From Clostridia bacterium (GTDB taxonomy: Bacteria; Bacillota; Clostridia; Acetivibrionales; JAFADI01), in NCBI GenBank assembly GCA_026418695.1, contig JAOAAU010000069.1:1-64000 (forward strand): a stretch of DNA of 64,000 bases. Reading direction: 5' to 3'. The position numbers were made by a program, and so were the translations under genes. Positions within the stretch are counted from its first letter, which is position 1, and every line of letters starts with the position of its first letter. The notes under the pieces are model-generated. The model searched no databases. It had not been told where the DNA came from and was given only the letters and a program-made list of their open reading frames with translations. Shown here one piece after another: positions 29,200 through 52,712 of the stretch.

Positions 29200-29440
29200 A
29201 ATTCTTTTCCTTCCACTTTTGAGCGACCAAAAGCGGCCAAAAGTCGTCATTCAATCGCCATGAGGGCTTCTACAGGTCAAATGAAAACCTTCTATGCACT
29301 TGACGATCATAAAACATTTCTTTGGCGGTCGGTGCAAATTCGCATCCATGGCTCAATTGCACCTAAAATGAACCTCCCTGTTCATTTTACCGCGTCGTTT
29401 GTTTTATAATCGAGTGCAACACGAAGCTTTTCAAACGCTA
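29200..29440. repeat. Possible dispersed element between larB and larC
   Basis: The 364-base gap is not AT-rich spacer. It has ordered features: a tandem GACCAAAAGC / GGCCAAAAGT motif near 29223-29246, a hairpin AAAATGAAC / GTTCATTTT near 29368-29391, and higher GC than other gaps. An 86-codon open frame crosses it but has no ribosome site. I suspect a repeated non-coding element, not a gene. Confidence 0.4.
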
Positions 29441-36770: not shown

Positions 36771-37355
36771 TTACTTATTAGTAATCTCATAAGTAAATAT
36801 GATGGCCTCGGCGATTGCCTTCATGGATAGCCGGGAATCCATACTCTTTTTCCTCATTCTTTCATAGGCTTCATTCTCACTGATTCCATCCCTCTCAATG
36901 AGAATCCACTTAGCACGCTCTACAACCTTCCTCGTCTCATAGTTCTCTGTCATTTCCTTAAGCTTCCGGTCCAGTTCATAGATGCGCTGATAGTTCATAT
37001 TGGCCATCTCAACCGAATGCAATAAGATTTCCCTGTTCAGCGGTTTGGGACAAAAGGACAGCGCTTTGGATTTCTTCAGCAGGCTGATGACTTCAACATC
37101 CTTATAATCTCCAACGGCAATGCATGCACAAAGCATCTCATCGTCTATCGTCTCAAGGGTGGTCCGAAGCTCCCGTAACTGCATGCCAAGGTCCACCACA
37201 ACAAAATCCGGACTGTAGCTTCTGATTAATCGAAGAAGTGTTGTTGAGTCACTGCAGTTTCCCAAGAATATATATCCGTTCGGATTCAAAATATTTCGTA
37301 TCGCTATTTGCATGGGGTTTTCTAAAGAAGCTACTACATATTTCTCCCCGGGCAT
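36771..37355 (-). CDS. ANTAR-domain response regulator (RNA-binding antiterminator)
   Basis: 194 residues from ATG 37355 (AAAGGCGGT site; TTG 37373 rejected). Residues 1-120 are receiver-like: the phosphate-site Asp (FVVVDLG, Asp55) and the KP motif (FCPKPLN, Lys104) are present, but the acidic pair at the end of strand 1 is missing (YVVASLEN), so phosphorylation may be altered. A coiled-coil stretch (120-145) leads into the ANTAR three-helix domain: VVERAKWILIERDGISENEAYERM then SMKAIAEAII. ANTAR proteins bind paired hexaloop hairpins in nascent RNA and stop terminator formation. Its likely target is the amtB leader, about 700 bases away. Confidence 0.93.
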   Translation of the reverse strand: MPGEKYVVASLENPMQIAIRNILNPNGYIFLGNCSDSTTLLRLIRSYSPDFVVVDLGMQLRELRTTLETIDDEMLCACIAVGDYKDVEVISLLKKSKALSFCPKPLNREILLHSVEMANMNYQRIYELDRKLKEMTENYETRKVVERAKWILIERDGISENEAYERMRKKSMDSRLSMKAIAEAIIFTYEITNK

Positions 37356-38039
37356 CCAATGACCGCCTTTCAATCATAATTACACTATATTATTCTCTTC
37401 CCTTGTTAGAATAAATTCACACAAAAAATCTACAATTAAATATTCTCACACAACAGGCCTAAATCAATTGATCAATGCACAGCTATTTTTGACTTATTCC
37501 TACGTTTTCGAGTAATACTGAATGTGAAAAAAGCCCCCCGACTGCAAGCTAACCACTTCAGCGAAGGACTTCATCGTCCCAAGTTCTAAACCCTCTGTTT
37601 ACTATTGCACCTGCTATTCAAATACACTCGTACTAAAGTTGAATTTTATTGACCATTGAAATCAGTACAAAAAACAGGCTCATTCATTTATTTTAGTATA
37701 TCAGACATTAAAATCAAATGAAAGTGCTATTCTACTGCTTTTTTAATAAATTCCTACATATATAAACTATTCGCAAGATACTCCTTCGGTCCATGTGCTC
37801 TCTTATGAGACGAATACCTTAAGAAGCATATGCTGTCAATCCGTTCAATGGCTTTGCGAAAATTCACATGGATATCGTAGCATATCGTTTTCCGTTTTGC
37901 AAGTTTGTTTTTCTTTTCCTTCATTTTATTTTTATTATAATCCATCAGCATTGTTAAAGCAGTCGTATTCTGCAACCTTTATCCATTGAAGCCAGTTACC
38001 GCTAGGTATATTTTTTTTTGAATAATTTCACTTTTCATA
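37356..38039. other. Intergenic region upstream of the amtB leader
   Basis: About 680 AT-rich bases. A GC-richer island at 37530-37600 reads on the minus strand as small hairpins (GGAC-GATGAA-GTCC, CTTC-GCT-GAAG) and then GGGGGGC followed by TTTTTT. It could be a small structured RNA or a remnant. A 60-70-codon frame on the minus strand near 37754-37951 lacks a ribosome site and is not called. Confidence 0.4.
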
Positions 38040-38068
38040 TTGCATTTTAAAAAATTCCATGCTATACT
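38040..38068 (+). promoter_or_regulatory. Sigma-A promoter of amtB-glnK
   Basis: TTGCAT (38040-38045), a 17-base spacer and TATACT (38063-38068). Transcription should start near 38075, immediately before the first hairpin of the leader. Confidence 0.7.
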
Positions 38069-38076
38069 GAGGTTAA

Positions 38077-38224
38077 TTAACAATGATGAAAATAAGTAAG
38101 GACGCTTATCTTGAGATTGTTTTCTCTCGATTTGCGTCTTTTTTGTTTTTATCTAATCTATGAATCTCACTGATGCGATTCATTTTTAGGAGCTCCTATA
38201 TCCTATATTATCAGAGTTGATAAT
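38077..38224 (+). promoter_or_regulatory. ANTAR-type antitermination leader of amtB-glnK
   Basis: Four hairpins have hexaloops with A at 1 and G at 4. H1 is 38077-38092, loop AATGAT, weak stem closed by C-G. H2 is 38092-38109, AUAAGU/GCUUAU stem, loop AAGGAC. H3 is 38161-38182, loop ACTGAT, TGAATC/GATTCA stem with one mismatch. H4 is 38207-38224, loop AGAGTT, perfect ATTATC/GATAAT stem. H1 and H2 are adjacent, as in known ANTAR sites. The 3' arm of H2 overlaps the 5' arm of the terminator at 38101. The A1/G4 rule is established for ANTAR targets; assignment here is by reading. Confidence 0.78.
38101..38144 (+). terminator. Conditional terminator in the amtB leader
   Basis: GACGC (38101-38105) pairs GCGTC (38134-38138), with inner ATC/GAT and GAGA/TCTC pairs and a TTGTTT loop, followed by T6. 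It cannot coexist with hairpin H2 (38092-38109). Confidence 0.85.
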
Positions 38225-38310
38225 TCTATACTTCCATCTTTAACTTAATTCAGTAAAAAAACTCATGAAAAAGCATGAGAACAAAAATTTTATTATGGAG
38301 GAATCGAATT

Positions 38311-39648
38311 ATGAGTAAAAAATTATTCGCAGTTTTATTAAGTTTATTAACTTTTGTATGTTTGCCCCTGGTATCTTTTGCTGAAGAAGCAGCAAAAGTA
38401 GATTCCGGCGATACCGCATTCATGTTTGTATCCACCGCATTGGTTTTCCTGATGACACCGGGTTTAGCCCTATTCTACGGCGGTATGGTAAGAAAGAAAA
38501 ACGTTTTGAACACAATGATGAATTCTTTTATCATCATCGCATTAATCTCGATACAATGGGTACTTTTCGGATATACATTGTCTTTCGGGCCTGACAAAGG
38601 CGGCCTCATCGGCGGTCTTGACTGGATGGGCTTCAGGGGAGTGGGCGGAACACCAAATGCAGATTATGCAGGAACAATTCCTCATAGTGCATTTGCAATG
38701 TTCCAACTGATGTTTGCCATCATTACTCCTGCTTTGATCACAGGAGCCTTTGCAGAAAGAATGCGTTTTCCAGCATTTCTCGCCTTCACACTGCTCTGGT
38801 CCACACTGGTTTATGATCCTCTTGCACATTGGGTCTGGGGTGTCGGCGGCTGGTTGAGAAACCTTGGCGCACTGGATTTCGCCGGAGGTACAGTCGTTCA
38901 TATCAGTTCGGGTATTGCCGGTCTTGTTGCAGCCATCGTCATTGGCAAACGTAAAGGTTATAAGGTTACACCAATGATTCCGCACAATATTCCTTTCGTA
39001 TTAATTGGTGCCGGTCTTCTCTGGTTCGGTTGGTTCGGATTTAACCCTGGAAGCGCGCTCGCTTCAAACGGTTTGGCTTTCAGTGCTTTTGTAGCTACAA
39101 ATACTTCTGCAGCAGCAGCTGTTCTTTCCTGGGTCATCATTGAGTGGATGCATCATGGCAAACCTACATTGCTTGGAGCTGCAACCGGTGGAGTTGTTGG
39201 TCTTGTTGCCATCACACCTGCGGCCGGCTATGTTGATCCCCTTTGTTCCATTATCATCGGCTTACTGGTCAGCCCGATCTGTTACTTCGCAGTCAGCGTA
39301 GCAAAATCCAAACTTGGCTATGACGATTCACTGGACGCTTTCGGATGCCATGGTATCGGAGGTATTTGGGGAGCTTTGGCAACCGGCTTGTTTGCATCCA
39401 AGAGTGTAAATCCTGCAGGAGCCGACGGTTTATTCTTCGGTAACGCATCACTTCTTGGAGTTCAAGCACTCAGCGTTATTGTAACCATTGTGCTTTCCGC
39501 GGTAGCCAGCTTTATCATTCTGAAAGTGATCTCAATATTTACAAAGCTTCGCGTAGATGCCAAAGACGAAGATGAAGGTCTTGATATTGCGCAGCACGGA
39601 GAAGATGCTTATCCTGATTTTGCAACAGAAGAAGGAATTTCACTGTAA
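38311..39648 (+). CDS. amtB: Ammonium transporter AmtB
   Basis: 445 residues from ATG 38311 (GGAGG site; the upstream in-frame start at 38275 is rejected). A cleaved signal sequence (1-25) is followed by the Amt core with 11 expected membrane helices: TPGLALFYGGMVRKKN, GAFAERMRF, DFAGGTVVHISSGIAGLV (first pore His) and FGCHGIGGIWG (second pore His). It imports ammonium. It is paired with glnK 61 bases downstream and preceded by an antitermination leader of about 235 bases. Confidence 0.97.
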   Translation: MSKKLFAVLLSLLTFVCLPLVSFAEEAAKVDSGDTAFMFVSTALVFLMTPGLALFYGGMVRKKNVLNTMMNSFIIIALISIQWVLFGYTLSFGPDKGGLIGGLDWMGFRGVGGTPNADYAGTIPHSAFAMFQLMFAIITPALITGAFAERMRFPAFLAFTLLWSTLVYDPLAHWVWGVGGWLRNLGALDFAGGTVVHISSGIAGLVAAIVIGKRKGYKVTPMIPHNIPFVLIGAGLLWFGWFGFNPGSALASNGLAFSAFVATNTSAAAAVLSWVIIEWMHHGKPTLLGAATGGVVGLVAITPAAGYVDPLCSIIIGLLVSPICYFAVSVAKSKLGYDDSLDAFGCHGIGGIWGALATGLFASKSVNPAGADGLFFGNASLLGVQALSVIVTIVLSAVASFIILKVISIFTKLRVDAKDEDEGLDIAQHGEDAYPDFATEEGISL

Positions 39649-39709: not shown

Positions 39710-40048
39710 ATGAAAAAGATCGAGGCAATTATCCGGCCCGGAAAATTGGAAGAAATCAAGGAATCCCTCAGCAAATTTAATATCCACGGTCTAACCATCA
39801 GCCAGGTTATGGGTTGTGGCCATCAAAAGGGAAGAAAGGAATTCTATAGAGGAACTGAAGTAACATTGAACCTTCTTCCTAAAATAAAAATTGAAATCGT
39901 AACCAAAGATGAGCACCTGGAAGAAATTCTTAAGCTGATCATGGATGAAGCAAAAACCGGTGAAGTTGGTGATGGAAAAATCTTTATTTATGAAGTTAAG
40001 GATGCTATCAGAATTAGAACCGGTGAAAGAGGAGAAAGTGCAATATAA
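39710..40048 (+). CDS. glnK: P-II nitrogen regulatory protein GlnK/GlnB
   Basis: 112 residues. MKKIEAIIRPGKLEEIK start, T-loop GRKEFYRGTEVTL at 41-53, B-loop GEVGDGKIFIYEV near 84-96, and C-terminal IRIRTGERGESAI. Tyr46 is kept, but the uridylylation Tyr51 is Val, so control is probably by ATP, ADP and 2-oxoglutarate binding and not by uridylylation. Such proteins plug AmtB. The amtB-glnK pairing is universal. Confidence 0.97.
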   Translation: MKKIEAIIRPGKLEEIKESLSKFNIHGLTISQVMGCGHQKGRKEFYRGTEVTLNLLPKIKIEIVTKDEHLEEILKLIMDEAKTGEVGDGKIFIYEVKDAIRIRTGERGESAI

Positions 40049-44011: not shown

Positions 44012-44275
44012 ATAAAAACTCCTTCATCCCGAAAGGGACGAAGGAGTAATTCGCGGTACCACCCTAATTAGCGCTTCACAGCACTCTCTCAGCCGGTGCA
44101 AACACACCGTTCCTTTGTAACGTAAGGAAACGTCTTCCTCTAATTAGAACCTCCGTGAATGAAAAGGTTCATATTTCTCAAGGAGATGCTCAAGGGCTGC
44201 CTTCCATAAAATCCTTTGTTAGACTTCCACCATTCTCTAACTCGCTGTAAAAATCTTATATGTACTCTTCCCTAT
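44012..44275 (-). promoter_or_regulatory. T-box leader upstream of the Lrp-aminotransferase operon
   Basis: On the minus strand: Stem I with GAAGAGTA (AGTA S-turn) near 44270, GTTAGAGAATGGTGGAAG in the distal loops, GAAGGCAGCCC near 44204-44194 (specifier region), and TTGAGC after it. The T-box AGGGTGGTACCGCG is at 44065-44052, then a terminator stem CTCCTTC...GAAGGAG (44019-44046) followed by TTTTTAT. The specifier reads GGC (Gly) or GCA (Ala), one base apart. The T-box base after UGG is U, which pairs with discriminator A and favours Ala. Promoter TTGTAA-17-TATAAT or similar lies near 44290-44335. Confidence 0.93.
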
Positions 44276-44373
44276 CATAGCATTTGATCTATTATATTGT
44301 ATTCCATTATACTAAAAAGGTGTGTGGATTACAATATACTTTTTTTGGAACAAAGTCTCTTTTATGAAAATTC

Positions 44374-52402: not shown

Positions 52403-52454
52403 ACATAATCCTACCTTGAAAGACATCATGGCATATGCATACAACATTCCTCCC

Positions 52455-52712
52455 CTTCAACGCTTACGAGGTTAGCTGACGGATTCGGGTCGCAAGAGAT
52501 TAACCCTACCGTTCTGGAAGTGGGAGGTGAGAGGTGGGAAGTGAGATTTAAGAACAGCTATGAAGTTAATAAAAGTTCTCACTTTACACTTTTCTCCGCT
52601 CACATTCAGAATGGATTCACCCCATGGATATTGGGTCCCCCGCTCTGCAGCAGAAATCATTAAATTGCATATGATATTTAAAACCAATGATTGATGATAA
52701 ATTCGTTGAAGT
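52455..52712 (-). promoter_or_regulatory. c-di-AMP riboswitch (ydaO-yuaA class)
   Basis: On the minus strand: P1 is a perfect 8-bp helix CTTCAACG...CGTTGAAG joining 52712-52704 and 52462-52455. Inside it are GAGCGGGGGACCCA, GGGGTGAATC, GTAGGGTTAATCT and the very conserved CCGAATCCGTCAGCTAACCT end. These are the marks of the ydaO class, which senses c-di-AMP and usually turns genes off. The middle variable arm (about 52515-52600) is unusually long and carries a GTGGGAGGTGAGAGG-type repeat. Confidence 0.93.

Follow-up and report, generated by a model that had tools for sequence, protein, structure and literature searches.

The general mechanism of antitermination by ANTAR proteins has been established for EutV (PMC3369931; PMC8934654), for which a single hexaloop is sufficient for binding (PMC8934654). 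ANTAR targets upstream of ammonium-transporter and P-II genes have already been listed by Ramesh et al. (2012, PMC3369931), who described 13 ANTAR targets distributed over six transcription units in one species. Here we analysed a window of 64,000 nucleotides from a Clostridia bacterium (contig JAOAAU010000069.1, positions 1 to 64,000 of the forward strand), in which an ANTAR gene is divergent from an amtB-glnK operon, with the amtB leader in between. This leader resembles the attenuators of the EutV-eut, NasR-nasF and AmiR-amiE systems in having a P2 hexaloop with A at position 1 and G at position 4 (A1/G4) that overlaps the 5' arm of a terminator, in having nitrogen genes as its target, and in its association with an ANTAR protein that carries the RNA-contact residues. 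It differs from them in that P1 is an almost stemless loop motif 10 nt from the P2 loop, in that leaders of this type have a purine, rather than strictly an A, at position 1, and in the presence of two extra, amtB-specific hairpins, H3 and H4, past the terminator. The clostridial glnA-linked ANTAR (NitR type), as it is cited in PMC4676874, likewise combines Clostridia, a nitrogen gene and an attenuator and also occurs in the window genome, but its paralog group is a distinct one, whose P2 stems differ. The mechanism of the core amtB-glnK attenuator is already known; what goes beyond the description by Ramesh et al. is the amtB-specific hexaloop pair past the terminator, the near-stemless P1 at a fixed spacing and the purine at position 1. 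A literature search covering the main texts of openly accessible papers returned nothing on this amtB leader.

The regulator, the attenuator and the operon are arranged in the window as follows:

36771-37355, minus strand: ANTAR response-regulator-like protein, predicted antiterminator (194 aa, ATG start)
38041-38070, plus strand: probable promoter TTGCAT-17-TATACT, identified by eye; transcript start expected near 38077
38082-38087, plus strand: H1 (P1) hexamer AATGAT closed by C-G, a loop motif with no stable stem
38092-38109, plus strand: H2 (P2) antiterminator hairpin ATAAGT[AAGGAC]GCTTAT, dG -2.3 kcal/mol
38100-38145, plus strand: intrinsic terminator, stem 38100-38139 followed by a U-tract, dG -17.5 kcal/mol, z -6.6
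38297-38301, plus strand: amtB Shine-Dalgarno sequence GGAGG, identified by eye; start codon at 38311
38311-39648, plus strand: amtB, ammonium transporter (Pfam 438 bits, TIGR00836 484 bits)
39710-40048, plus strand: glnK, P-II signal protein (Pfam P-II 106 bits)

As the original prediction had proposed, the gene at 36771-37355 encodes an ANTAR-domain protein: the domain scores 70.4 bits in Pfam, well above the curated cut-off of 27.3, and the protein aligns with EutV (6wsh) at an E-value of 1.7e-22. In this alignment, the EutV residues R142, K143, E160, Y164, R168, M172 and R175 are kept, and N173 is replaced by D, K147 by R and R177 by S. The receiver part scored below the Pfam Response_reg cut-off. 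As had been read from the sequence earlier, it retains Asp55 and Lys104 but is missing the acidic pair, in whose place the alignment to EutV shows S10-L11, and a Gly occupies the switch Thr/Ser position, so that the full residue set of a phosphorylatable receiver is not present. Since a phosphorylatable receiver is a trait of EutV-type members and not of all ANTAR proteins, control by EutV-like phosphorylation is less supported, leaving membership of the ANTAR family unaffected. The acidic pair is absent from the orthologs of this protein as well; because of this, and because of the Gly at the switch position, phosphorylation control appears doubtful and control by a partner protein plausible, with GlnK from the same operon as a candidate. 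By eye, the T-loop of the window GlnK reads YRGTEV, in which Val presumably stands where the enteric P-II protein has the uridylylated Tyr51.

Ten bases (38100-38109) are common to H2 and the 5' arm of the terminator, so that only one of the two structures can form. This mutual exclusivity had been predicted originally with somewhat narrower boundaries and is borne out here, and the folding energy of the terminator lies far beyond chance. The H2 loop, AAGGAC, has the A1/G4 of an ANTAR P2, with purine1/G4 in relatives. All four hexamers of the window leader, those of H1, H2, H3 and H4, have A1 and G4. The earlier description of four such hairpins thus holds for H2, H3 and H4, which fold, and not for H1: its flanks form one C-G pair followed by two A/A mismatches, and with an MFE of 0 kcal/mol we rejected it as a true hairpin in the window. 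As a loop motif, H1 is nevertheless recurrent, with G4 in 12/12 and A1 in 11/12 of the leaders that have one; in 9 of these 12, it stands 10 nt away from the loop of H2. Its stem varies from absent in the window to 4 pairs in leader L015 and is without stability in most leaders; in the G037 leader, H1 is apparently missing and the -10 box abuts H2. An Rfam search of the whole window, extended to the leader at low threshold, returned no ANTAR target, the matches in the leader being at chance level only. Above Rfam thresholds, the same window contains, on the minus strand, a TwoAYGGAY RNA (29280-29435), a T-box leader (44031-44287) and a c-di-AMP riboswitch (52446-52662).

A simple scanner listed no sigma-70 consensus match in the window leader. 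Because the TTGCAT-17-TATACT element is present, and because a TTGCAT/TATAAT-like box is found at the equivalent place in most relatives' amtB leaders, the amtB transcript very probably starts upstream of the attenuator. A start downstream of 38145, which would have spoken against the original prediction, therefore did not come out, the promoter-like site at 38041-38070 preceding the attenuator. Further along the leader, the hairpin CTCATG-AAAAAG-CATGAG (window 38262-38279) reads on the minus strand as a well-formed intrinsic terminator followed by TTTTTTT, as would suit the end of an antisense transcript coming from amtB.

The comparison of the leader took in about a dozen genomes from the order of the window genome, in which amtB orthologs were found, together with a partial one in G011. 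The leaders of these relatives carry H2 as AAGY[RARGRY]GCUU, or near it, with a terminator behind, and the hexaloop always has G at position 4 and either A or G at position 1. When 13 genomes were searched for the exact H2 signature followed by a terminator, at most one occurrence per genome was found, always before amtB or glnK (in G021 before glnK, not amtB). Three further exact matches to the signature lie in G028 and G016, and the two that were inspected were both without a terminator. Orthologs of the window ANTAR, taken as those scoring over 250 bits, are divergent to amtB in the window genome and in G005, G008, G011, G017, G026, G028, G033 and G034, and divergent to glnK in G021; in G037 the ortholog lies 31 kb away. 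Since the orthologs are divergent to amtB or glnK in most genomes that have the leader, the sequence comparison indicates that the pairing of this ANTAR type with the amtB leader is old and dedicated, with few exceptions, which may be assembly gaps. The layout originally described for the window, in which amtB-glnK follows an ANTAR-type attenuator and the regulator gene is divergent alongside, is thereby found to be kept across families.

Taken together, we consider it likely that this locus serves amtB-glnK as a dedicated transcription attenuator of the ANTAR type, with H3/H4 standing outside it and acting after read-through. A transcript starting near 38077 would by default form the terminator at 38100-38145, leaving amtB off. 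When active, the neighbouring ANTAR protein would hold the loop motif of H1 together with the hexaloop of H2, so that H2 captures the terminator 5' arm and the polymerase reads through into amtB-glnK; this mode of action is proposed by analogy with the EutV system (PMC3369931, PMC8934654). From the genes controlled, we infer that nitrogen shortage would be the signal that turns the operon on. The read-through RNA would then carry H3 and H4, two more purine1/G4 hexaloop hairpins outside the attenuator, which appear to go with amtB and whose most probable role, once read-through has occurred, lies in the translation of amtB or in offering the same protein a docking or decoy site.

The window genome contains two more ANTAR proteins, either of which might act on the amtB leader in place of the neighbour. 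The glnA-linked ANTAR (L001 1483-2058; L226; contig C36 of the window genome) adjoins glnA and a glutamine amidotransferase-like gene, and the corresponding leaders have GAAC[RNNGNN]GTTC hairpins with a terminator. The other, on contig C35 (L003 1069-1674 and 1790-1930), precedes a second glnK-amtB operon, and its orthologs in relatives precede glnK-amtB or nifH (group loci L003, L014, L144-L149, L154, L156-L159 and L235). In leaders of this C35 type, P1 is exemplified by AAATTC[CTGGAT]GAATTT and P2 by GGC[TGAGAC]GCC; the loops keep G4, and in nearly all of them position 1 is C or U. In a profile alignment, the position of EutV Met172, whose change to Ala abolishes RNA binding (PMC8934654), is Arg in 15 ANTAR sequences, all of the C35-type group; the other sequences have Met in 76 cases and Cys in one, with one cut off. 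The glnA-linked group keeps Met together with purine1 loops. This match of Met with A1 and of Arg with a pyrimidine at position 1 is a correlation across paralogs and not a test. In G021 (L014, L188), the amtB ortholog has a leader of the pyrimidine1 type and the window-type leader stands before glnK alone, suggesting a swap of both leader type and ANTAR partner.

That another cellular ANTAR, for example the glnA-linked one, regulates the amtB leader gains some support from the presence of three ANTAR proteins in the window genome, and from G016 and G029, which keep the leader but in which a glnA-type ANTAR is the sole one found; in these two genomes, either the ortholog is missing from the assemblies or another ANTAR is able to act. 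Against this, the divergent neighbourhood is kept in most genomes, glnA-type targets have P2 stems of a different kind (GAAC[..]GTTC), and the third paralog combines Arg in place of Met172 with pyrimidine1 targets, which together make regulation by a protein other than the neighbour improbable.

Turning to the region past the terminator, the features that concern H3 and H4 are:

38160-38183, plus strand: H3 hairpin ATGAATC-T-C[ACTGAT]G-C-GATTCAT, dG -6.1
38188-38197, plus strand: palindrome AGGAGCTCCT between H3 and H4, found in seven leaders
38207-38224, plus strand: H4 hairpin ATTATC[AGAGTT]GATAAT, dG -3.3
38219-38237, plus strand: H4 3' arm and flank, complementary to the amtB start region; predicted duplex with 38295-38312

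Both hairpins are conserved as structures. The H3 helix is 94% paired with 3 pairs altered on both sides, and its relatives keep the mismatch beneath the closing pair and a constant G at loop position 4, with A or, in about half of the leaders, G at position 1. The H4 helix, 96.7% paired with 2 pairs altered on both sides, is nearly invariant in sequence. In an alignment of both hairpins from ten leaders, 95.4% of cells are paired, and their covariation score was reached in 0/500 shuffles, with slid controls being 28 to 52% paired. For H2, by comparison, 96.7% of pairs are kept in 10 leaders with one pair altered on both sides, and the covariation is weak taken alone, its score being reached by 36/500 shuffles. 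The compensatory changes anticipated in the original prediction were thus found in five pairs of H3/H4 and in only one of H2, and of the fixed A1/G4 that it expected, G4 held and position 1 proved to be A or G. Neither a lack of covariation nor a loss of loop conservation, the outcomes that would have weighed against it, was observed, since paired changes were found and G4 was constant across leaders. All 11 H3 and H4 hairpins inspected keep G4 and a C-G closing pair, and both elements have the paired stem and G4 hexaloop of the single-hexaloop ANTAR definition (PMC8934654). The palindrome next to H3, NGGAGCTCCN, also occurs in L005, L006, L011, L012, L013 and G011, and its outer pair is swapped symmetrically among leaders (T..A or A..T).

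A covariance model of H3-linker-H4 (R1) gave convincing matches within the order (E 1e-7 to 1e-11) solely before this amtB, including the G011 leader (9.6e-8), which was outside the training set; a scan of 391 genomes of the class gave no other convincing match. Weak matches were the only sign of H3/H4 elsewhere in the genomes, and the few inspected gave no result. On the plus strand, H4 is not followed by a U-tract terminator, nor does it overlap one; the H3-H4 linker varies in length, with L015 (a few nt) and L011 (about 110 nt) as the extremes. With no overlapping terminator and a free linker length, a second attenuator was rejected. The losses observed in two genomes are of interest here. 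In G021, H1, H2 and the terminator precede glnK, amtB is gone from the site, H3 has decayed and H4 is absent; in G026 (Anaerobacterium chartisolvens), H2, the terminator and H3 are gone, and H4 and the GGAGCUCC palindrome remain. On the strength of these losses, H3/H4 seem to go with amtB rather than with antitermination, although one case each way is suggestive and not proof. The proposal that H3/H4 make the leader a tandem antitermination target is therefore not upheld, given the absence of a terminator at H4, the variable linker and the independence from the attenuator in loss and retention. Nor are tandem targets as unusual as had been supposed, given the 13 targets in six transcription units in PMC3369931 and the two units seen in Sporomusa and Pelosinus. 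In these genera and their relatives (L054, L056, L062, L091, L111), two serial hexaloop/terminator units, or signs of them, precede amtB.

H3/H4 might instead constitute a second, translational ANTAR switch, through which one protein would control amtB at two levels: without protein, the H4 3' arm and UUCC would pair with the Shine-Dalgarno sequence and start codon of amtB, and binding of ANTAR to H4 would free the start. The duplex of 38219-38237 with 38295-38312 is predicted at -14.6 kcal/mol, and about 1% of 300 shuffles were as good. Six leaders with GGAGGRRUCGA (the window, L005, L006, L011, L012 and G011) show this pairing at -10.9 to -14.7 kcal/mol, where it beats 93-99% of shuffles, and the AUCGA spacer after the Shine-Dalgarno sequence is conserved for no other evident reason. 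In an exchange matrix, the H4 segment of the window forms its strongest pairing with the native start region (-14.6 versus -6 to -12), as do those of L005 and L006, whereas the native pairing of L012 is not its best. The absence of H4 where amtB is absent (G021) fits as well. However, four other leaders tested are without such pairing, and L007-L010 have H3/H4 without complementarity. In the window itself, the best predicted fold keeps H4 yet pairs the Shine-Dalgarno sequence with 38231-38237, so that H4 formation alone would free the start-codon side only, and forcing H3/H4 leaves the predicted Shine-Dalgarno accessibility unraised. H3 is also left unexplained by a switch of this kind; pairing of its 3' arm with the start region is possible by eye and no better than shuffles in most leaders. 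The actinobacterial ANTAR RNAs that act on translation (PMC8164766) are, like H3/H4, 5' UTR hexaloop hairpins without a terminator, but they overlap the ribosome-binding site and their binding represses, whereas H3/H4, which come after an attenuator and are placed about 90-140 nt upstream, could act only at a distance. We regard a translational switch as possible, if on the unlikely side.

In RNAs of the EutX / Rli55 type, hexaloops sequester EutV, and H3/H4 resemble them in offering hexaloops that could hold an ANTAR protein. Those are separate RNAs with a riboswitch, whereas H3/H4 are part of the target mRNA, where they could serve as a cis decoy or feedback site: read-through transcripts would hold ANTAR dimers and so limit further antitermination. 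Such a role would tolerate the free H3-H4 spacing, and it suits two purine1/G4 hexaloops with C-G closing pairs, given that one hexaloop suffices for EutV binding (PMC8934654). It gives no reason, however, for their loss with amtB in G021 or their retention without the attenuator in G026, and a single copy per genome makes little sponge, so that a decoy is rather improbable. Finally, H3/H4 may be unrelated to ANTAR, forming a 5' mRNA stability element or the site of another RNA-binding protein, with G4 coincidental. The near invariance of H4 beyond the loop rule and the G at position 1 in about half of the H3 loops would fit this, but the G4 and C-G closing pair common to all the hairpins inspected do not, and G1 also occurs in H2 loops of the same leader group, so that a purine at position 1 fits the same protein; a role unrelated to ANTAR is conceivable without being the favoured outcome. 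Our preferred reading remains the dedicated attenuator with H3/H4 acting after read-through. Its most extended form, in which two separable ANTAR-type elements let the same protein also control amtB translation, alongside a second, Arg172/pyrimidine1 ANTAR code in the clade, is one that we put forward tentatively and consider unlikely to hold in full.

For ammonium-transporter genes, ANTAR attenuators have been predicted by a covariance search, and few of them have a regulator beside a single target that can be traced across families. The amtB leader and its neighbouring ANTAR provide a clean pair of one protein and one leader for binding and reporter tests. The contrast between Met/A1 and Arg/pyrimidine1 paralogs offers a direct route to ANTAR target choice, a question left open by the EutV structure, and the pyrimidine1 loops form a class that is missed by searches demanding A1. 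The hexaloop pair past the terminator is not accounted for by antitermination as currently modelled, and binding of ANTAR there, if it occurs, would extend the model; the natural gains and losses in G021 and G026 make its link to amtB testable.
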